Origin: a virus
Virus record (IMG/VR): IMGVR_UViG_3300037507_005588
Location: 25,823 to 89,822 of that record
Length of the DNA stretch: 64,000 nucleotides
Direction: 5' to 3' (one strand)
Of this stretch, positions 25,754-61,794 are shown one piece after another. The translations under genes were made by a program, and so were the position numbers. The notes beneath the pieces are model-generated. The model was not told where the DNA came from. It saw nothing but the letters and a program-made list of their open reading frames with translations, and ran no database searches. Every line of letters starts with the position of its first letter. The first letter of the stretch is position 1.

Positions 25754-25909
25754 GGTTGGTAGTACAAAGCGTAGGTTGACAGACTGAGAGAGCAGTTCGC
25801 AAGGGTACACACTAAGAATTCTATTTCTCTCTAATGGTGTGTGAAGTTAGGCCATTCCGAGGTTGCTAAACGGGATTCCTGATAAAGTCAACTACTACCA
25901 ACCTTTTTT
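25754..25909 (+). ncRNA. Candidate structured RNA with a closed multi-branch fold
   Basis: GGTTGGTAGTA (25754-25764) pairs with TACTACCAACC (25893-25903), immediately followed by T6. The stem continues with GTTGAC (25775-25780) to GTCAAC (25887-25892). Inside are three local hairpins: ACTG/CAGT (25783-25796), ACACAC/GTGTGT (25807-25842) and ATTCCG/CGGGAT (25854-25876). No reading frame fits. The upstream stretch from the tRNA-Tyr end can also fold (GTAGG/CCTAC, CGAT/ATCG). I do not recognise the family: it lacks RNase P, SRP, 6S and tmRNA signatures. Confidence 0.55.
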
Positions 25910-34693: not shown

Positions 34694-34996
34694 ATGGATG
34701 ACATTAAAAGATTACTCAGAGAGAGTTTAGTACAACACCTCAAGGAAGCCGAGGGTAAGAAAAAAGAAGACGTTATGGTACCTCAGGGATGTTTTGGTGG
34801 ACCTAAACATGGTTTGGGTGCGTTAGTAAACATCGTAGAATTACTCATGAGAGAGAAAGATAGTGAGGGTACGAAAGCCGTTGATGATTTGAAACAATTT
34901 TTGAAAGGAACATCTAAGGTTGACCCGAAAGTTGTTGTTCAGATTTTAAGGAAACACAACAAACCACAATTTATAAGTTTTACAGGATGTTTGTAA
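34694..34996 (+). CDS. Small late protein with LKE N-terminal tag
   Basis: 100 residues. It opens MDDIKRLLRESLVQHLKEAEGKK: an amphipathic helix ending in LKE at residue 18, a possible prohead-protease site. Then comes a compact domain with two cysteines (VPQGCFGG, SFTGCL). Similar N-terminal helices occur at 35517 and 63917. A capsid-packaged protein is one reading. Confidence 0.55.
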   Translation: MDDIKRLLRESLVQHLKEAEGKKKEDVMVPQGCFGGPKHGLGALVNIVELLMREKDSEGTKAVDDLKQFLKGTSKVDPKVVVQILRKHNKPQFISFTGCL

Positions 34997-43853: not shown

Positions 43854-44675
43854 ATGAGTCTCGTAACATATTTAGTGGCACCCTGTGCTGGCGGAGCCGC
43901 AGTTGAAGTCGATTTTGATGGACGTTCTCTTCCTGTAATTGGGGGAAATTATTATTTAACCTTTAATGGTGCAACTGCCGAAGGTTGTTACGAAGTTGTT
44001 GATACTGCGGAACCAGGTACTGGTTCAGATGTTGTTGCAACACAATCTTCGAATTATGGAGATTGTTTAACTTGTTTGGCGGATAACCCAACACCAACCC
44101 CAACACCCACACAAACTTCAACACCTACTCAGACTCCTACTAACACTGTAACACCATCGGTAACCGCGAGTCAAACAGCAACCAATACTCCAACACCATC
44201 GGTAACTGCGAGTCCAACACCGACACCATCGGTGACAAGTACTGTAACTCCGTCACCAACACCGACGGTCACGACATCACAAACAGCAACAAAAACACCG
44301 ACTCCGAGTAATTCTCCGACTCCAAGTGTTACGGCTTCGAATACTCCAACACCATCTATTACGGCATCACAGACCGCAACAAAGACACCAACACCAACGG
44401 TGACTCCGTCCGTAACGGCTACGAATACTCCTACACCGACACTTACACCTACTAATACACTTACACCAACTAACACACCTTCACCAACACCGTCAAACAC
44501 CCCAGCAGCTTCGGCTCAGTTTAACGGTCAAATCGACTATGAAGATTGTGTAAATTGTAGTGGTACAATAACGACTCCACAACTTCCTAAACCAGCTTGG
44601 TCTGATAACCAAGGTGCGGTTGTTTACCAAACAGATGCGGTTGCGCTTGGAGGTCCTAATGGATTAAATTCTTAA
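43854..44675 (+). CDS. Pro/Thr-repeat virion-type protein with Cys module
   Basis: 273 residues. A globular N-terminal module of about 75 residues has [18 protein letters not shown] and ends YGDCLTC. It is followed by some 140 residues of TPTPS/TQTAT-type repeats and a short C-terminal domain with [10 protein letters not shown]. The Cys module recurs twice in the 1127-residue protein at 58411. It lacks a signal peptide, so a virion surface component is likelier than an exported protein. Confidence 0.6.
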
Positions 44676-48680: not shown

Positions 48681-50450
48681 ATGGGTCTTTCCCGTGAACA
48701 ATTATTATTAGAATACACGAAGTGCATGCAGAATACTCCGTATGCGCTTCGAACTTATTTGCAGACATACGACAATACCCAATCGAGGTATGTTCCGTTA
48801 GAACTATTCCCTGACCAAGTTAGGTTAGTAGAAGATTACGATAGTTTTAATGAAAATATTGCCCTGAAATACCGACAAGCGGGTGTATCAACGGTTACCG
48901 CAGCATGGGCAAGTAAGAAACTTGTATTCGCTAGAAAAAACAAACCAGAAAAGGTTTTGATTATTGCCAATAAATTGGATACCTCTGTAGAATTTGCCAA
49001 CAAAATCAGGGAATTTACAGACCAATGGCCTTCGTGGGTTGGAGTGACTTTTTCCAACGACAAAAATGCTGCAAAACACTACAAACTCACAAACGGATGT
49101 GAGGTTAAGGCAGTTGCAACATCTAAAGACGCATTACGTGGATATACCCCCACGATTCTTATATTTGATGAAGCGGCGTTTATTGACGCGGACAGTGATT
49201 TCTGGGCGGCTTGTATGGCGTCACTATCCACAGGTGGTAAAGTGATTGTTATATCCACACCAAACGGATATGACCCCATCTATTACGAAATCTATGAACA
49301 GGCAAATCGTGGAATGAACGATTTTAAGATTACTGAGATGTATTGGTATCGAGACCCAAGATATACTAAAGATTTATACTTGGTAAAAACTGATGATATT
49401 GTTCATTATTTTCTAAACAGAGAGGAATATAAAAATGAAAAAATTTTAGATTACTCTGACGTAAACCCATTTGAAAGAAATTTTGCTGAGTTGGTAGATT
49501 TGTTCAAACAAGGTTGGAAACCATCCTCATCTTGGTTTGAGGCGATGGTGAAAAAACTCAAGTACGACAAAAGAAAAGTTGCTCAAGAATTGGAATGTAA
49601 TTTCCTCGGTTCAGGTGACAACGTTTTTGACTCAAATATGTTGAAGAGTATTACAGACAATATGGTTCAAGAACCCCCCACCAAAATGATGAGTGGTGGT
49701 TTGTGGATTTGGAAGGAACCAGAACTTGGTCACAAATATATTATGGGTGTTGACGTTTCTCGTGGAGATTCTGAGGACTTTTCCACATTTCAAATTTATG
49801 ATTTTGACGACAGGGAACAAGTTGCCGAATATCTAGGTAAAGTTCCACCTGATGTTTTAGCTGAAATTGCTTATAAATGGGGGAATATGTATAAAGCCTT
49901 TATTGTTGTGGATATCACTGGTGGGATGGGGGTATCGACTTCGAGGAAATTACAAGAACTTGGTTATAAAGATTTGTATGTCGATGGAGTAGAGTTTGGT
50001 AATAAATGGAAATATGACCCAAAAATGGATTTGAAGATTCCGGGTATTAACTTTAACTCAAAACGTGTTCAAATAATTGCATCTTTTGAAGAAGGGTTAA
50101 GACATGGATTAAAAATTAGGTCTTCACGATTATTGAACGAGATGAATACGTTTGTTTACATCAATGGTAGGCCAGACCACATGAAGGGGCAACATGATGA
50201 TTTGATTATGTCCTTGGCAATGGCTGTGTATGTTTCTGACTCATCGTTTTCCCAATTGACAAAGGTATCTGAGCAGGCTAAAACTATGTTGGAATCATGG
50301 ACGGTTCAATCATATGAAAAACCACAAGAAACGTACTTCAACCCATCTATTTCGAATAATAACTTCAAAAGGAATGTTGCATATCAAAATGAACCTAGCA
50401 AAAGCGATTATGAAAAGTATTTATGGTTATTCGGCGGTGGCAAGCGTTGA
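48681..50450 (+). CDS. Terminase large subunit (gp17-like)
   Basis: 589 residues, close to T4 gp17. ATPase: Walker A-like YRQAGVST (64-71), Walker B ILIFDEAAF near residue 155 and the ISTPNG coupling motif. Nuclease: GVDVSRGDSED with the first acidic ligands and QHDDLIMSLAMA near the C-terminus. The enzyme translocates DNA into the prohead and cuts concatemers. It is followed directly by the portal gene, whereas in T4 the sheath and tube genes lie between. Confidence 0.95.
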   Translation: MGLSREQLLLEYTKCMQNTPYALRTYLQTYDNTQSRYVPLELFPDQVRLVEDYDSFNENIALKYRQAGVSTVTAAWASKKLVFARKNKPEKVLIIANKLDTSVEFANKIREFTDQWPSWVGVTFSNDKNAAKHYKLTNGCEVKAVATSKDALRGYTPTILIFDEAAFIDADSDFWAACMASLSTGGKVIVISTPNGYDPIYYEIYEQANRGMNDFKITEMYWYRDPRYTKDLYLVKTDDIVHYFLNREEYKNEKILDYSDVNPFERNFAELVDLFKQGWKPSSSWFEAMVKKLKYDKRKVAQELECNFLGSGDNVFDSNMLKSITDNMVQEPPTKMMSGGLWIWKEPELGHKYIMGVDVSRGDSEDFSTFQIYDFDDREQVAEYLGKVPPDVLAEIAYKWGNMYKAFIVVDITGGMGVSTSRKLQELGYKDLYVDGVEFGNKWKYDPKMDLKIPGINFNSKRVQIIASFEEGLRHGLKIRSSRLLNEMNTFVYINGRPDHMKGQHDDLIMSLAMAVYVSDSSFSQLTKVSEQAKTMLESWTVQSYEKPQETYFNPSISNNNFKRNVAYQNEPSKSDYEKYLWLFGGGKR

Positions 50451-50478: not shown

Positions 50479-52287
50479 ATGATGGCAGAAAATGAAAAAA
50501 ATTTAACAGTTTGGCAGAGGTTATCCCAAACTTTCGGACCCAATTCTTTATTGGGTCAAGATATTCCTACGTATCAATACGACAAAAAAGTTTTATTGAG
50601 AACTACGGACAAAGACGAATACGAAAAACAAAAATTACAAGCTCGTCAAACTTACTATTTGTCTCAACAATGGGCAAAAATTGAGAATAATTTATACTCT
50701 CAAGCAATTTATTATGAACCAACAAGATTGGCTTCATATTACGACTACGAATCAATGGAATACACTCCCGAGATTTCTGCCGCTTTGGATACCTATGCTG
50801 AAGAATCTACCACAGTGGATGAGAATGGACACATGTTACAAATCTATTCTGACTCACCACGTATCAAATCTATTTTGGGTGATTTATTTAACAATGCTTT
50901 GGATATCAACACCAACCTTCCCATGTGGACAAGAAACACTTCGAAATATGGTGATAACTTTGTTTTCTTAAAATTAGACCCAGTCAAGGGTGTTGTTGGT
51001 TGTTTACAACTACCAAACATCGAAATTGAAAGAATTGAAGTAGGTATGAGAGGACGAGCAACTTCAGGGTTGGGTGGTGCTCCTACAACAACAGATGCTA
51101 GAAGTTTAACTTTTACGTGGAAAAACAAAAACTTAGAATTTAATAGTTGGGAGATTGCTCACTTTAGATTGTTGGGTGACGATAGAAAATTACCTTATGG
51201 TACTTCCATGTTGGAAAAAGCTAGAAGAATTTGGAAACAACTGGTTCTTTCGGAAGACGCTATGTTGGTTTATCGTGTATCGAGAGCACCCGAGAGAAGA
51301 GTTTTCAAAGTTTACGTGGGTAATATGGAAGACCAAGACGTTCAACCATACCTACAAAGGTTTGCACAACAATTCAAAAAAGACTCTGTCGTAGACCCTC
51401 AAACAGGAAACGTAGATATGAGATTCAACCAAATGGCGGTTGACCAAGATTTCTTTATTCCAGTTAGAGACCCAGCAGCTCCAAATCCGATTGAAACCTT
51501 GGATGGCGCGAAAAACTTATCAGAAATCGCCGACATTGAGTACATTCAAAAGAAATTATTGACAGCACTGAGGATTCCAAAGGCGTTTTTGGGATTTGAA
51601 GAAGTTGTGGGAGATGGTAGAAACTTATCTCTACAAGACATCCGTTTTGCCCGTACAATCAATAGGATTCAAAAATCTATGATTGCCGAGTTAAATAAGA
51701 TTGCAATTGTTCATTTGTTTTTATTGGGATTTGAAGACGAACTTGGTTCGTTCCAACTTAGTTTGACAAATCCATCGAAACAAGCTGATTTACTTACCAT
51801 AGATGTTTGGAAAGAAAAAATGTTATTGTATAAAGACGCCGTGACAGCGGTAGATGGTATTGCACCTGTTTCACAGACATGGGCTAAAAAACATATAATT
51901 GGTTTCTCAGATGAAGAAATCAAATTGGATTTACAACAACAAAGAATCGAAAAGGCGGTTGCAACTGAAATTCAAAATACTCCTAACGTGATTACCAAGA
52001 CTGGTTTATTTGATAATATTGATAAACTTTATGGAGGTTCTACAACCGGGGCAACGACGAGTAGTGATACGGGTATTGATGCTGGTTTGGGAGAATTACC
52101 CTCAGAAACTCCAATCGAGTCACCCACGGAAGGAGCTCCCGCAGAAATTACACCTGAATCTACAAATAAACAAGACAAGGTCATTTACGATTCAGAAAAC
52201 TTGGGGACAATTATGGAAATTGATTTGGATAAAGGAAGACGTTCTTTGGGTGAAATAGAAGAGCGTCTGTCTAAACTAATTAACTAA
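50479..52287 (+). CDS. Portal protein (gp20-like)
   Basis: 602 residues. Blocks YYEPTRLASYYDYESMEYTP, ALDTYAEESTTV, RRIWKQLVLSEDAMLVYRVSRAPERRVF and ETLDGAKNLSEIADIEYIQKKL are the core of T4-type portal proteins, which form the dodecameric DNA channel. The C-terminal 100 residues are Pro/Thr-rich and variable. The start may be either of two adjacent ATGs (50479 or 50482). Confidence 0.93.
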   Translation: MMAENEKNLTVWQRLSQTFGPNSLLGQDIPTYQYDKKVLLRTTDKDEYEKQKLQARQTYYLSQQWAKIENNLYSQAIYYEPTRLASYYDYESMEYTPEISAALDTYAEESTTVDENGHMLQIYSDSPRIKSILGDLFNNALDINTNLPMWTRNTSKYGDNFVFLKLDPVKGVVGCLQLPNIEIERIEVGMRGRATSGLGGAPTTTDARSLTFTWKNKNLEFNSWEIAHFRLLGDDRKLPYGTSMLEKARRIWKQLVLSEDAMLVYRVSRAPERRVFKVYVGNMEDQDVQPYLQRFAQQFKKDSVVDPQTGNVDMRFNQMAVDQDFFIPVRDPAAPNPIETLDGAKNLSEIADIEYIQKKLLTALRIPKAFLGFEEVVGDGRNLSLQDIRFARTINRIQKSMIAELNKIAIVHLFLLGFEDELGSFQLSLTNPSKQADLLTIDVWKEKMLLYKDAVTAVDGIAPVSQTWAKKHIIGFSDEEIKLDLQQQRIEKAVATEIQNTPNVITKTGLFDNIDKLYGGSTTGATTSSDTGIDAGLGELPSETPIESPTEGAPAEITPESTNKQDKVIYDSENLGTIMEIDLDKGRRSLGEIEERLSKLIN

Positions 52288-52311: not shown

Positions 52312-53013
52312 ATGAACTTCGGAGAAATTTTATCTAAAATTGAGTCAAAAATGGTATCGTCATACGTGAATGGTACTTTGAAAGAAGATACGCTAAACTT
52401 CAAAAAATTTGTTTTGGAGAATAAAACAATTAGTTCTTTGACTCACCTATATACTGAACTTGATAAGAGTCAAGGTTTGGATAAAGAAACTGCTGAATTA
52501 TTTATTTTTGAGTCTGTTAGACAGATTGAAAAGTTCTTACCGAAGTTAGATTTGACAAAAGTTGCAAAATGGACTCAAAATGTTGTTTGTGAAAACCAAT
52601 ACAAATCAATTGACAATTTGGTATATACTCTTCCAACAACAATTTTAGAATCTGTAGAAAGTAGAAAAAATATTATTTCAACTTTGACTCAAAAACCGCA
52701 AGTAAAAGAATCAATTAATTTACCTATTGAAACAATTTTCAATATTGCGGGAAAACAATTAGAAAATTATATTCAAAATTTAGATGAATCTTCAAAAAAA
52801 GATTTGTCAAAAGTTTTAATGACTGAAGATACACAACTAACAGTAGAATTCGAAGACTTAAAAACTAAAACGGTAGATGCTTTGAGAAAGATTTCATCTG
52901 ATGATGAACTAACTCAAAATAAATTGAACGAAACTATCGAACAAGTTTCACAAGACAACTATTCAAAGATTAATTACGTAAGATTATACAATTTATTCAA
53001 TAATCTTAACTAA
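52312..53013 (+). CDS. Late head-region protein
   Basis: 233 residues, almost wholly helical (MNFGEILSKIESKMVSSYVNG ... LYNLFNNLN), rich in Lys, Thr and Ser. It occupies the place between portal and protease where T4 carries the small core genes 67 and 68, so a prohead-core role is plausible. The 3' end overlaps the stop of the antisense bS21 gene by four bases. Confidence 0.55.
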   Translation: MNFGEILSKIESKMVSSYVNGTLKEDTLNFKKFVLENKTISSLTHLYTELDKSQGLDKETAELFIFESVRQIEKFLPKLDLTKVAKWTQNVVCENQYKSIDNLVYTLPTTILESVESRKNIISTLTQKPQVKESINLPIETIFNIAGKQLENYIQNLDESSKKDLSKVLMTEDTQLTVEFEDLKTKTVDALRKISSDDELTQNKLNETIEQVSQDNYSKINYVRLYNLFNNLN

Positions 53014-53201
53014 TCTTTTTCACTATCCTTTTTATTCTGAACGTACTTGGCTTTCAAAATTTGGGAACGATGTGAAACGCTCTTTTTTTGGAATTGTTGT
53101 CTTTTACGTAACTTGTCCAATTGCTTGGTTTTAATAACTTTTCCCTTAAGAATTTTGAGGGCTTTTTCGATGTTTGACTTTTCGACTATTACGTGAAGCA
53201 T
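53010..53201 (-). CDS. rpsU: Ribosomal protein bS21 homologue
   Basis: 63 residues. MLHVIVEKSNIEKALKILKG, KVIKTKQLDKLRKRQQF and KSVSHRSQILKAKYVQ follow the bS21 pattern from start to end, including a Tyr at residue 53. bS21 binds the small subunit near the anti-Shine-Dalgarno end of 16S rRNA. In Bacteroidota, bS21 helps hide that sequence, so a phage version could alter start-site choice. It is the only minus-strand gene in the head block. The late octamer TATTTATA lies upstream at 53217-53224. Confidence 0.88.
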   Translation of the reverse strand: MLHVIVEKSNIEKALKILKGKVIKTKQLDKLRKRQQFQKKSVSHRSQILKAKYVQNKKDSEKD

Positions 53202-53216
53202 AGATTTGTTTATTGG

Positions 53217-53224
53217 TATAAATA
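53217..53224 (-). promoter_or_regulatory. Putative late promoter TATTTATA (minus strand) of bS21
   Basis: Ends 15 bases before the ATG at 53201 on the minus strand. Confidence 0.5.
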
Positions 53225-53308
53225 ACTTGTAAAAAAGAAAAAATTTGACGGAGTAACTTTTATACCTATTATTTTACTACAAATAAATTAGTAGTACTCA
53301 AATAACAC

Positions 53309-53749
53309 ATGAAAAAAGGAAAAACCTCTCGTATTGCAGGGTTTCCCGAAGCTAAAATTACTTACGGAACAGTAGACTCAAAAAATCTAAAATCAGTTTA
53401 TCTAAATTTACAAAGTTGGGTCAATCCCAAAGATGAATATGAAAATTGGGACAGAATTGTTTCATATTTTTCTAAGACAATAAAAAATTCTGTCTACGAA
53501 GTTTTGGATAAAGAAATCTTTAAGGAAAACTATATAGTAGATTTAGATTTGAGAAGTAGTGGTATTGTCACAGGAAAAAAGAGTTTCATGAATTTAGAAA
53601 TTACTTTTTTTACCAACCAAGAATTCGATTTCAAAGATGTAATCCTCAAAGAATCCCTAAGAAGAGTTACTCGAAATATATACATTGAGAATTTCAAGAA
53701 AAACAAATATTTTGATTTTACAATCTCAAAAAAAGTAAAAGAAGCTTAA
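53309..53749 (+). CDS. Head-region protein
   Basis: 146 residues, basic and beta-rich (MKKGKTSRIAGFPEAKITYG ... FKDVILKESLRRVTRNIYIENF). It lies directly before the prohead protease and, with the gene at 52312, fills the 67/68 position of T4. No family is recognised. About 20 AT-rich bases separate its start from the divergent bS21 promoter region. Confidence 0.55.
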   Translation: MKKGKTSRIAGFPEAKITYGTVDSKNLKSVYLNLQSWVNPKDEYENWDRIVSYFSKTIKNSVYEVLDKEIFKENYIVDLDLRSSGIVTGKKSFMNLEITFFTNQEFDFKDVILKESLRRVTRNIYIENFKKNKYFDFTISKKVKEA

Positions 53750-53776: not shown

Positions 53777-54499
53777 ATGAAAATTTTGGGACCTAACGAT
53801 ACTGGCAAAGGAATTCTAATTGAATATGATGCAGGTTTAGTATCACCTAACCATGAGTTTAACAAAAAAATGATTCAAGAATCTAACAAAACTATGTTGG
53901 ATTATTCTAAACCTTTTGAGTTTTATGCCGTATTACAAAAGTATAATACGCCAAACAGAAATGGTCGTGTTTATCCCGAGAGAATCCTAAAAAGAGAAGC
54001 CGAAAACTATAAAAAGGCAATCGCGAAAGGTGTAGCACTTTCTGAACTCAATCACCCTGAATCTTCACTGATTGATTTGGATAGAGTTTCACACAGTATC
54101 GAAGATGTTTGGTGGGACGGTCATATTTTGATGGGTAAATTAAAATTGTTAACCTCACCTGGGTTTCATGAAAGAGGTATTGTATCTACCAAAGGTGACC
54201 AAGCGGCAAACCTTTTGAGACAGGGTGTAACTTTGGGTATATCATCAAGAGGTGTTGGGTCCCTTAAAAAAGTTGGGGAACAAAATGAAGTTCAAGATGA
54301 TTTTGAATTGATTTGTTTCGATTTGGTTTCTTCACCATCTACTCCTGGCGCATATCTTTTCACAAATCCTGAGGATAGAAATAACTTCGAAGAAAATTTG
54401 GAAGAGGAAAAAAGAGAACGTTCTACCGAAATTCATTCAACTGGTTTGAATCGCTCAGTTGACTTATTGAAAAAATTAAATCATTATTTGAATAAATAA
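53777..54499 (+). CDS. Prohead core protease (gp21-like, S77)
   Basis: 240 residues, near T4 gp21 in size. Catalytic His93 in LSELNHPESS and the nucleophile Ser156/157 in LGISSRGVG are spaced as in the herpes-type assemblin fold, with the NRNGRVYPERIL opening of the family. It matures the prohead by cutting after [IL]xE in capsid and internal proteins. Candidate sites are visible in the capsid protein (LINE60) and at several N-termini in this window. Confidence 0.9.
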   Translation: MKILGPNDTGKGILIEYDAGLVSPNHEFNKKMIQESNKTMLDYSKPFEFYAVLQKYNTPNRNGRVYPERILKREAENYKKAIAKGVALSELNHPESSLIDLDRVSHSIEDVWWDGHILMGKLKLLTSPGFHERGIVSTKGDQAANLLRQGVTLGISSRGVGSLKKVGEQNEVQDDFELICFDLVSSPSTPGAYLFTNPEDRNNFEENLEEEKRERSTEIHSTGLNRSVDLLKKLNHYLNK

Positions 54500-56480: not shown

Positions 56481-58325
56481 ATGGGCGCATTATTAGAAAG
56501 TGGTCTAGTTGGTAACATCGGTCTTAAGCACTTGAAAGTTATCAAAGAAGACACAGTAAATAAGTGGGACAAATTAGGATTCCTTGAGGGTCTAGGTGGT
56601 CACTTGAAAGAGAACGTAGCTCAGTTGTACGAAAACCAAGCTTCATATTTGATTAACGAAGCTTCTTCAACTTCTGACTCAGGTTCTTTCGAGACCGTAG
56701 TTTTCCCAATCGTAAGAAGAGTATTCTCTAAACTTCTTGCAAACGATATCGTATCTGTACAAGCAATGAACTTACCAATCGGTAAATTGTTCTACTTCGT
56801 ACCTAAAATCCAAGGTTACTCTGGTGGTACTACTCCTAACGACCTAGGTTACTTCGGTCAATCTGGTGACCACTACGCTCCTGTAGGTTCTCCAGGTAAC
56901 TACCCAGGTAATCCTGACGCTGGTTACACTAACGGTACAGGTTCTTACAATCCTACATACACAAAGGATTTGTATGACTTGTTCTACGAAGGTAACGAAG
57001 CTGGTTTGAATCCTCCAGGTTTGTTTGACTACTCTAAAGGTAAGTGGTCAGCTACTACAGCTGCTACTACAACTGTAGCTTGGAACAACAATGGTCTTAT
57101 GGTTCCTGCAGCATACGCTATAAACGATTACAGAAAGGTTATTATCGTATTGAGTGGTTTCTCTAACTCAGGTGCTGGTCAACTTATCGGACCTAATGGT
57201 AACACTATGGATACAGAAGAATTCCTTTCAGGATTGAACATCTTCGGTGTTCCTTCAAACGCGACTACTTCTGCTAACACCAGCAATCCTTACTTATTCA
57301 GAGTAGTAACTCAAAGATACGGTAAGGGTATCGTAGAATACGGTAACCAAGCTTCAACTACTTGGCCAACAACTGGTTCAGGTGGTCAGTACTACAACGT
57401 ATGTGACGCTAACGGTAGAATTTACTTGGAGGTAGACCTTCAGGTTCCTGTTTGTATTGAGTGTGGTCAAACAACTCCTGATGGTTACACAGGTTCAACA
57501 TTCGAATCTACACCAGCATTGAACCAAGCGTTCGTTGGTGTTTACAGAATCTACAAAGAACTTGAATTCGAAGACCAAATCGGTGAAGTTTCTTTCGACC
57601 TTGAGTCAGTAACTGTTTCTGTTACAGAAAGAAAACTTAGAGCACAATGGTCTCCTGAATTGGCACAAGACGTTGCGGCATTCCACAACATCGACGCTGA
57701 AGCTGAATTGACAGCTTTATTGTCTGAGCAAGTGGCTGCTGAAATCGATAGAGAAATCTTGAGAGACTTGAGAAAAGGTGCAGCTTGGAACCTAAGATGG
57801 GATTACAACGGATGGAAGAGACTTGCTTCTAGCGGTACAACTCCATACACTCAGAAAGACTGGAACCAAACTTTGATTACTGCAATCAACCAATTGTCAG
57901 CTCAAATCCACAAATCAACTTTGAGAGGTGGTGCTAACTGGATTGTTGTTTCTTCTGAAGTTTCAGCTATCTTTGACGACTTGGAGTACTTCCACGTTTC
58001 AAACGCGGCTCCTGAGCAGGACCAATACAACATGGGTATCGAAAGAATCGGTACTTTGTCAGGTAGATACCAAGTGTATCGTGACCCTTACTTCCCAGCT
58101 AACCAAGTGTTGATTGGACACAAAGGAACTAGCTTGTTGGATACAGGTTACATTTACGCTCCATACGTACCTCTACAATTGACTCCAACAATGTATAACC
58201 CATTCAACTTCACTCCTATCAAGGGTATCATGACTAGATACGCTAAGAAGATGGTTAACAACCGTTTCTATGGTAGAGTAACAGTTGACGGTGTTAGAAC
58301 ATTCGACTTGAGAGAATTGAGATAA
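56481..58325 (+). CDS. Major capsid protein (gp23-like)
   Basis: 614 residues. The N-terminal 60 residues form a propeptide ending SYLINE60 before ASSTSDSGSFETV, a proper [IL]xE cleavage site, comparable to E65 in T4 gp23. Then FPIVRRVFSKLLANDIVSVQAMN, RKLRAQWSPELAQDVAAFHNIDAEAEL and the tail PIKGIMTRYAKKMVNNRFYG are hallmarks of the T4-type HK97 fold. An insertion between residues 110 and 330 is larger than in T4. Codon use is visibly more GC-rich than in neighbours, as expected for the most abundant protein. Confidence 0.95.
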   Translation: MGALLESGLVGNIGLKHLKVIKEDTVNKWDKLGFLEGLGGHLKENVAQLYENQASYLINEASSTSDSGSFETVVFPIVRRVFSKLLANDIVSVQAMNLPIGKLFYFVPKIQGYSGGTTPNDLGYFGQSGDHYAPVGSPGNYPGNPDAGYTNGTGSYNPTYTKDLYDLFYEGNEAGLNPPGLFDYSKGKWSATTAATTTVAWNNNGLMVPAAYAINDYRKVIIVLSGFSNSGAGQLIGPNGNTMDTEEFLSGLNIFGVPSNATTSANTSNPYLFRVVTQRYGKGIVEYGNQASTTWPTTGSGGQYYNVCDANGRIYLEVDLQVPVCIECGQTTPDGYTGSTFESTPALNQAFVGVYRIYKELEFEDQIGEVSFDLESVTVSVTERKLRAQWSPELAQDVAAFHNIDAEAELTALLSEQVAAEIDREILRDLRKGAAWNLRWDYNGWKRLASSGTTPYTQKDWNQTLITAINQLSAQIHKSTLRGGANWIVVSSEVSAIFDDLEYFHVSNAAPEQDQYNMGIERIGTLSGRYQVYRDPYFPANQVLIGHKGTSLLDTGYIYAPYVPLQLTPTMYNPFNFTPIKGIMTRYAKKMVNNRFYGRVTVDGVRTFDLRELR

Positions 58326-58410: not shown

Positions 58411-61400
58411 GTGAGTCTTTGTAAAAAACTTGTAATCAAAAACATATCTACTGTTGTTAGGGTTATCTCATACACTCGATGTTCGGATGGTTTGGTAATT
58501 TACAATTATCAAATTCCTGCAGGTGCTACAAGGACAATTTATTATAGAATATATTCTTATAGTACCGCATCTCCTCAAAGTTTTCAAATTTTATCGTTAG
58601 AAGATTGGCCGCCAGATTCAACACCAACACCAACACCCACGATAACTCCTACGGTGACTCCTACGGTGAGTATTACTCCTACTAATACTGCTTCACCAAG
58701 TCCAACGAGAACGAGTACTCAAACACCTACACAGACCTCCAGTGGGACTGCAACGCCAACACCTACACCAACCGTAAGTCCAACTCAAACTCCAACTAAC
58801 ACACCTACACCTTCAATTACTCTGTCGGCAACAAATTCACCAACACCGACAAATACAAATACTCCAACTCAAACGTCAACTCAAACACCTACGAGTAGCG
58901 TTACTCCATCAAATACGCCAACGCCAACAATAACTGAATCACCAACAGCAACACCAGGTGAAACTCCAACTCAAACTCCCACAAATACTGCATCTAATTC
59001 TCCTACACCAACAAATACGGATACTCCGACCCAAACTCCATCCCAAACACCAACATCGACGGTCACTAGTACTCCTACGGTAAGTATTACATCATCTCCA
59101 ACAGCAAGTAATACCCCAACTAATACTCCTACAAATACTGTTACCGCAAGTAATACTGTTACACCAACACAAACAGAAACTCCAAGTCCAACACCCGGAG
59201 AATCTCAGACTCCGACACCATCGGTAACCCCAACAATTACCTTGTCTCCAACAAATAGTGGTACACCGACTACAACACCAACCAACACATTCACACCAAC
59301 TCCTTCGATAACATCATCACCTACGGAAACTCCAAGTCCAACACCTGGAGAAACACCATCTCCGACCGCTTCGATTACACCTACAAATACGCCGACACAG
59401 ACCTCAACAACAACACCAACTAATACTCCATCAAACACTGGAACTCCGACTAACACGCCGAGTCCTACTGTGACTGATACCCCAACCCCAACTCCTGGAG
59501 AATCTGCAACTCCAACTCCGACTCAAACAGGAACACCAACAAATACTCCAAGTAACACGGCATCTCAAACTCCAACACAGACTGAAACACCAACAAATAC
59601 TCCAAGTAATACAGCGTCTCAGACTGCAACACAAACACCAACGCAAACTGAAACACCAACAAATACTCCAAGTAATACAGCGTCTCAGACTGCAACACAA
59701 ACACCAACGCAAACTGAAACGCCAACCAATACTCCAAGTAATACCGCGTCTCAGACTCCATCTCAAACACCTACTCAGACCGGTACACCAACAAACACTC
59801 CGAGCAACACGGCATCTCAAACTCCATCTCAAACGCCAACTCAGACTGGTACACCAACCAACACGCCAAGTAACACAGCTTCTCAGACTGCAACACAAAC
59901 ACCAACTCCAACTGAAACACCAACAAATACTCCAAGTAATACAGCTTCCCAAACTCCGACTCAGACTGGTACACCAACAAATACTCCAAGTAATACAGCA
60001 TCTCAGACTCCATCTCAAACGCCAACTCAGACCGGTACACCAACAAACACTCCGAGCAACACGGCATCTCAAACTCCATCTCAAACGCCAACTCAGACTG
60101 GTACACCAACCAACACGCCAAGTAACACAGCTTCTCAGACTGCAACACAAACACCAACTCCAACTGAAACACCAACAAATACTCCAAGTAATACAGCTTC
60201 CCAAACTCCGACTCAGACTGAAACACCAACAAATACGCCAAGTAACACGGCTTCTCAGACTGCAACACAAACGCCAACTCAAACCGGCACACCAACAAAT
60301 ACTCCAAGTAACACGGCTTCTGAGACCCCAACTCCGACACCGACACAGACTCCAACCCCGACACAAACATACACTCCTACCCCAAGTTTAACAGCATCAG
60401 TCACTCCAACAGAAACTCCGACTCAAACACCCGAACCAACTTATTGGTCAATTAATGAATTGACAAATTGTTGTACTGGAGAACGATATAATCCTGGGGT
60501 TCTTGTTAGTTTATCTTCGACAGCACCTCAAAATGGTGACACAATTTCTGTGAATGCCGATGGTACAGGAATCAAGTGTTGGACAATCACGAGTGAGGTC
60601 ACACCAATATCACCAGAATCTGGAGAATATATCATAACTAATTATGGTCCTGAGAACTGTGAAATTTGTGTGTTGACATACCCATGTCCTTCACCAACTC
60701 CTACTCCAACTCAGACACAGACTCCAACACAAACTCAAGCGGAATTGGTTTATATCTTGGAAGAATGTCCAGGTGGTGGTGATGTAATATATGCTAACTT
60801 TATAAATGCCGGAGCACCTAATAACGACGTAGTTTATATTAATTTCGATGGAGGAAGTGGTTGTTATATAGTCGTAGAAGGACCAATTTTAGCACCAGCT
60901 GATGTATATGTACTTAGTAAAACTGACCAAACTGCTTGTAATACTTGTAATGTGTCTCCAACTCCAACACCTACTCAGACAAGAACACCAGCGGCAACCC
61001 CAACGGTGACCCCGACTAAAACTCCAACTTCAACCCCAACAAGGACTCCAACTGGAACACCTACAACAACACCTACACCTACGAAGACCAAGACACCAAC
61101 TCCAACTAAGACTAAAACACCAACTCCAACGCCGACTCCGACTGGTCCTTGTAGTTGTAGTGGTCAACTTCCTTGTCTTGGACCAACAAGTGGGTATGAT
61201 TTCACCATAAAAGAAGTGATTGGTGGTACTACGTCAACTGCTTTGTGGCAGAATATTTCTGAATGGGAAACATGGCTTGGTTGGAAATCATGGAGTTTTG
61301 GTGGTGGTGAACCTTGTACTAGTAATCCTGGTAGTGTTCAGCCGATTAGTCAGAATAAACCAAATACAAATACTGGTAATGGAGTTGAAAAAACCACCTC

Positions 61401-61794
61401 AGTAAATGACTATTTCACAAGGTGTTATCTTGTTGTTGTTGGGTTTAGATATGTACAATCAGGTGCCACCCCAAGTAGTAATATAAGACTTTCAGTTGGT
61501 AATGGTTATGGAGATTGTAGTTATGGAGTATTTGATATTCCAAACCCAATTAGTGGTACATATTATTCATTCCAATGTCAGATACCTAACATGACTGCGC
61601 CTAATCTTGTAATCGGACTATATACACCTGTTTACAGTCCATATAATTCATGTTTTTCACCTGGTTCATTATCCTGTTGTTATACAACCGCTCAAGGTTC
61701 CACGAACTATGTTTGTCCTGCTGGTCTATGTTCAAGTTCAACTGGTTGTGACCCGTATTGGCAAGGTTCTTGTCCTTTAGGTGATGGGTGTTGA
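58411..61794 (+). CDS. Giant Pro/Thr-repeat virion-type protein
   Basis: 1127 residues with a GTG start. An N-terminal beta-rich domain (about 1-70) is followed by some 600 residues of [16 protein letters not shown] repeats with no Tyr, Trp or Cys. Next come two copies of the Cys module seen at 43854 ([10 protein letters not shown] ... [10 protein letters not shown]; then GCYIVVEG ... CNTCNVSP) separated by further PT linkers, and a Cys-rich C-terminal domain of about 215 residues. The architecture is that of a long flexible fibre or a mucin-like capsid decoration. The terminator before it makes it an independent late unit. Confidence 0.72.
59505..60345 (+). repeat. Tandem Pro/Thr-coding repeats with an internal 252-bp duplication
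   Basis: Units of 42 to 66 bases encode [13 protein letters not shown] variants. A block of about 190 bases starting near 59775 recurs almost exactly 252 bases later (from about 60027), a recent in-frame duplication of 84 codons. Copy number is likely to vary. Confidence 0.8.

Follow-up and report, generated by a model that had tools for sequence, protein, structure and literature searches.

We found that a phage very probably infecting Bacteroidota carries an intact and conserved bS21 gene on the strand opposite to its head genes, in a conserved locus and behind an octamer of its own, and that this gene has no Shine-Dalgarno (SD) sequence, whereas the rpsU genes of Flavobacterium have a strong one. 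The encoded protein keeps an aromatic residue at position 54 and displays phage-only residues. The best-supported mechanism, to which we assign a probability of about one half, is that the phage synthesizes a substitute bS21 outside the SD-based autoregulation of its host. The stretch of DNA analyzed here (the window, 64,000 bases) runs from base 25823 to base 89822 of a virus record in IMG/VR that is 89,822 bases long, and the features around the gene are listed in Table 1. In addition, 25 tRNA genes are predicted in the window, between 1197 and 32823.

Table 1. Features of the bS21 locus (positions in the window)
Feature	Position	Strand	Basis or remark
Terminase large subunit (terL)	48681..50450	+	PF03237, E 6e-14; phrog_2, E 9.5e-39
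T4-type portal protein (gp20)	50479..52287	+	PF07230, E 1.5e-74
Conserved uncharacterized protein, 233 aa, convergent with bS21	52312..53013	+	3' ends overlap by 4 nt, including the stop codons
Phage bS21 gene, 63 aa, ATG start	53010..53201	-	Pfam, 7jil match, conservation, dN/dS, tree, model
Predicted short leader/start region of bS21 mRNA, without SD	53202..53216	-	Pairing +1.9 kcal/mol
Octamer TATTTATA, 15 nt before the bS21 ATG; putative late promoter element	53217..53224	-	Enrichment; same octamer in relatives and immuto
GTCAAA element ahead of the bS21 octamer, kept in many relatives	53244..53249	-	Intergenic alignment; seldom found before TATTT in the rest of the record
Conserved uncharacterized protein, 146 aa, divergent from bS21	53309..53749	+	Same place in relatives; positional match to 'bS21_CN' (Chen et al. 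2022)
Prohead core serine protease	53777..54499	+	PF03420, E 1e-23
Major capsid protein, MCP (gp23)	56481..58325	+	PF07068, E 6e-73

The product of the reverse-strand gene matched Pfam family PF01165 with 33.6 bits (E 3e-8), passing the curated cut-off of 27 and covering profile positions 1-52 of 55, and no further match to this family was present elsewhere in the 89.8-kb record. Its top sequence match in the PDB is the bS21 of Flavobacterium johnsoniae (7jil, E 7e-8), and AlphaFold modeled the two helices as expected (mean pLDDT 88, pTM 0.44). Between the phage protein and that of a relative (L012), 43 of 61 residues are identical, and a dN of 0.228 against a dS of 1.80 (dN/dS about 0.13) indicates that the gene is under purifying selection. 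A chance ORF is ruled out by the family score, the dN/dS and the conservation. At the sequence level, the full-length bS21 homologue described in the earlier note is confirmed as real and complete; the gene looks functional and belongs to a kind described before.

On the forward strand, the genes follow the order terL, portal, 233-aa gene, 146-aa gene, prohead protease, a short DUF4494 gene, a scaffold-like acidic protein and gp23, with bS21 antisense between the 233-aa and 146-aa genes. From the portal side to the protease side, all neighbors of bS21 lie on this strand. Its reported placement between portal and protease held for the region, but the direct neighbors are the two conserved uncharacterized genes. 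Proteins rich in Thr-Pro repeats (PTPTPTQTP) are encoded at 58411-61794 and 43854-44675, adjoining the head genes.

To what extent the locus is conserved was seen in two scans. With the phage bS21 as query, 61 loci were obtained from IMG/VR, 60 of them with the same 233-aa neighbor, and the remaining head genes were nearly always on the strand opposite bS21. With F. johnsoniae bS21, 21 viral loci were obtained and 20 showed the same arrangement; the odd one (L145) was excluded as bacterial-type, since its bS21 and upstream region match those of the bacterial locus L201. Pooling both scans, 80 of the 82 related viral loci had the same flanking genes.

This arrangement is that of the lake Bacteroidetes myophages (clades a-e) described by Chen et al. 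2022 (PMC9723584), in which a reverse-strand bS21 lies between two hypothetical genes inside the terL-portal-protease-MCP region. In those phages, bS21 is expressed late alongside the head genes and is also co-expressed with the adjacent divergent gene (PMC9723584). They share with the phage analyzed here the aromatic residue at position 54, the divergent N-terminal positions and the predicted Bacteroidetes hosts, and nothing categorical sets our phage apart. Both the antisense arrangement and a late-translation hypothesis have been published previously (PMC9723584).

In all 33 distinct relatives, bS21 converges with the 233-aa gene with a 3' overlap of 4-20 nt. Such a conserved overlap, together with the site inside the head module, would suit a non-ribosomal role, in which, for example, bS21 binds RNA as a structural or packaged component, or its transcript acts as a regulatory antisense RNA where the upstream gene ends. 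We consider this highly improbable: selection is seen at the protein level, the rRNA-contacting aromatic residue is kept, and an overlap of this length does not call for an antisense role. Nor was an RNA family or a conserved fold detected: RNAalifold gave 0.0 for either strand of the divergent intergenic region, and Rfam yielded no match. As for the divergent 146-aa protein, a confident alpha/beta model was obtained (pLDDT 90), and about 40 of its residues are invariant in relatives. It has no significant solved relative in the PDB and no PHROG family; its one match is an uncharacterized myovirus protein with the same fold.

We compared the phage protein with F. johnsoniae bS21 at the residues contacting the 3' end of 16S rRNA, which were taken from PMC9976891 and PMC9723584. 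Tyr54 of F. johnsoniae is stacked against A1534 and gives the 16S tail a new direction (PMC9976891). In the alignment its counterpart in the phage protein is Tyr53, the kind of aromatic residue characteristic of Bacteroidia-type bS21, and the position is aromatic in all 32 distinct phage bS21s (27 Tyr and 5 Phe). Because the residue is retained, phage bS21 should keep the anti-SD occluded instead of exposing it. That replacement of bS21 would expose or alter the anti-SD, as the change in initiation proposed in the earlier note might be read, is thus unsupported: the stacking position stays aromatic, and the genes of the phage lack an SD with or without the octamer.

The differences lie away from position 54, where the phage protein has V23, I24, Q28 and K41 in place of F, D, T and P in F. 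johnsoniae. F23V, D24I/V and T28Q are found in 32/32 phage proteins and in 0/23 Tyr54-type bacterial bS21s, and P41K in 30/32 and 1/23, respectively. Likewise, the motif KV[IV]x[TS][KR]Q (KVIKTKQ in the window protein) is present in all 32 phage proteins and absent from 61 bacterial bS21s. Most of the N-terminal changes among them had been reported by Chen et al., who list positions 21, 23, 25 and 28 as divergent (PMC9723584).

Fixed changes of this kind are not predicted if the phage simply supplies more of the same protein, that is, if late in infection the loosely bound, exchangeable bS21 runs short or is lost and the phage tops it up, leaving mRNA choice and host regulation unchanged. This explanation agrees with how strongly the gene and its rRNA-binding C-terminal half are conserved, with the finding that bS21, like some other ribosomal proteins, can be exchanged in vivo (PMC6375957), and with the lowered initiation on SD-less mRNAs after bS21 loss in F. 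johnsoniae (PMC9976891). Given the phage-only residues in all 32 proteins, we regard it as unlikely. The same residues speak for selective initiation, put forward by Chen et al. 2022 and close to the view of the earlier note, in which changes in the N-terminal half, which lies near the mRNA path, would make ribosomes prefer phage late messages to those of the host, perhaps favoring short leaders. The predicted phage leaders of about 0-11 nt point the same way, as 87% of F. johnsoniae leaders are longer than 10 nt, with a mean of 33 (PMC6847099). We nevertheless find selective initiation possible but doubtful, in view of the octamer geometry and start contexts of the phage genes.

The octamer attributed to bS21 in the earlier note is present, and 20 ORFs have TATTTATA upstream, where 0.8 would be expected. 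Allowing TATTTAT[ATC] within 34 nt upstream, 34 genes were counted against 3.3 in shuffles (maximum 10 in 500 shuffles). The T4 late octamer TATAAATA was also considered on the coding strand and gave only 4 upstream matches, the enriched form being its reverse complement TATTTATA. Head-protease and lysis-type genes of this record likewise have the octamer in front of them, which makes the label 'late-type' reasonable though not proven, and in relatives the octamer precedes protease, portal, scaffold and terL homologues. A late sigma factor was not seen among 20 ORFs of the record examined. In the intergenic region of relatives (53202-53308), a (GT)CAAA(C)TTTT element precedes the TATTT box of bS21 by about 20 nt (53244-53249, reverse strand), and TTTATTT (AAATAAA on the forward strand) lies about 20 nt before the divergent gene (53281-53287, reverse strand).

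The distance from octamer to ATG is bimodal, 3-8 and 14-15 nt, with TATTTAT[AT] found, for example, before the starts at 34694, 43055, 52312 and 53777. If the first six bases of the octamer serve as a -10 element, leaderless mRNAs and mRNAs with leaders of about 11 nt are predicted, suggesting that both kinds of late message may occur in a Bacteroidota phage. The bS21 gene of the window has the longer spacing, while in most relatives a TATTT box lies about 4 nt before the ATG. To this extent, the near-leaderless late messages of the earlier note find a basis in the sequence. However, the spacing differs between orthologues (3-19 nt for ORF52312; 3 or 27-31 nt for the portal), and MCP has an A-rich leader with no octamer within 45 nt, which disfavors leaderlessness as the target of bS21. 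Furthermore, genes with the octamer hardly differ from the other genes of the phage in SD strength or start-site folding, which counts against selective initiation.

The contrast with host rpsU lies in the SD. In F. johnsoniae, translation of rpsU is driven by its SD on ribosomes lacking bS21, which constitutes autoregulation (PMC9976891). We estimated SD strength as the pairing energy of the 22 nt upstream of the start codon with the 16S tail (25-nt or 22-nt windows for a second phage subgroup). The value for the window bS21 is +1.9 kcal/mol (taken from the L002 group, of identical sequence). Among 19 distinct phage bS21 upstreams, values ranged from -3.3 to +2.1 kcal/mol, and in the second subgroup from -1.1 to +2.7 kcal/mol; phage bS21 thus lacks the extended SD of autoregulated Bacteroidota rpsU (below -13 kcal/mol). 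Flavobacterium rpsU served as the comparison set: an SD of -17.2 to -21.7 kcal/mol is present at all 80 loci (15 distinct upstreams). Across Bacteroidota, 34 of 56 rpsU genes lie below -10 kcal/mol and 15 lie above -5, so the autoregulatory loop would be common, but absent from some possible hosts; these 56 are the parsed ones of 70 host loci, 14 left unparsed by the motif rule being set aside.

As rpsU autoregulation is SD-based, a bS21 gene without an SD would stand outside the host loop. The genes of the phage are in general SD-less (median -1.1 kcal/mol), and the missing SD of bS21 therefore need not reflect selection for escape. Neither the SD comparison with host rpsU nor the octamer geometry is in Chen et al. 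2022 (PMC9723584), and the SD contrast, of which we found no earlier mention in the literature consulted, is the main addition of this analysis. Two further cases were noticed. The 735-kb phage LR756501 (L237) has a bS21 gene with a strong SD (AAAGGAGG, -12.1 kcal/mol) and an aromatic residue at position 54, and in one Bacteroidota genome a bS21 gene with a strong SD (L223, -15.9 kcal/mol) is accompanied by an SD-less paralogue (L222, -1.5 kcal/mol).

The host is very probably a member of Bacteroidota, as the earlier note had proposed, judging from the Tyr54-type bS21, the head module collinear with that of Flavobacterium phage vB_FspM_immuto and the SD-less genes; no spacer match was found. 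In a tree from 64 columns, whose inner forks are weak, all 32 distinct phage proteins group in a single clade (support 100/99) placed among the bS21s of Tyr54-type Bacteroidia. The portal matches that of immuto (MW353176, host Flavobacterium sp. LMO8) at 37%, and both phages have the order terL-portal-protease-scaffold-MCP. Immuto also shares TATTTATA, located 16-17 nt before its terL, portal and next gene. Unlike our phage, its head module has no antisense gene, and a phage search found no bS21 in immuto.

Taken together, we favor a substitute bS21 made outside host autoregulation. A functional, phage-adapted bS21 would be produced from its own octamer promoter, probably late, as its position, the octamer and the published RNA data on relatives suggest. 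It would then replace or supplement host bS21 on 30S subunits, a substitution we consider plausible and in this respect in line with the earlier note. With the Bacteroidia-type C-terminal helix and the aromatic residue retained, the anti-SD would stay hidden, and SD-less messages of the phage, and of the host, could still be read. Because its mRNA has no SD, synthesis would be independent of the bS21-free ribosomes that drive host rpsU. As these ribosomes are filled by the phage protein, translation of host rpsU should be lowered and new 30S subunits would carry the phage version, possibly to the benefit of phage mRNAs. A stronger form, in which the SD-free, anti-SD-hiding bS21 fills bS21-free 30S subunits and shuts off SD-dependent host rpsU while its N-terminal changes favor short-leader late mRNAs, appears to us improbable.

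Known systems bear on this mechanism in both directions. The bS21 of F. johnsoniae (7jil; McNutt et al. 2023, PMC9976891) belongs to the same family and has the same C-terminal signature with Tyr54, but there rpsU is autoregulated and preceded by an extended SD, whereas the antisense phage family is SD-less and has V23, I24, Q28 and K41. The pelagiphage HTVC008M also encodes a bS21, and 70S ribosomes of E. coli were shown to take it up (Mizuno et al. 2019, PMC6375957); that protein is of alphaproteobacterial origin, serves an SD-using host and lies outside the antisense head-module family. Two observations count against the mechanism: E. coli ribosomes with the pelagiphage bS21 were nearly inactive (PMC6375957), and the bS21 gene of the distant huge phage LR756501 has a strong SD.

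The phage bS21 described here is a clear member of the commonest class of phage-borne ribosomal proteins, in hosts where bS21 governs access to the anti-SD. Its SD contrast with host rpsU turns the question of why phages carry bS21 into one that can be tested with reporters in F. johnsoniae.
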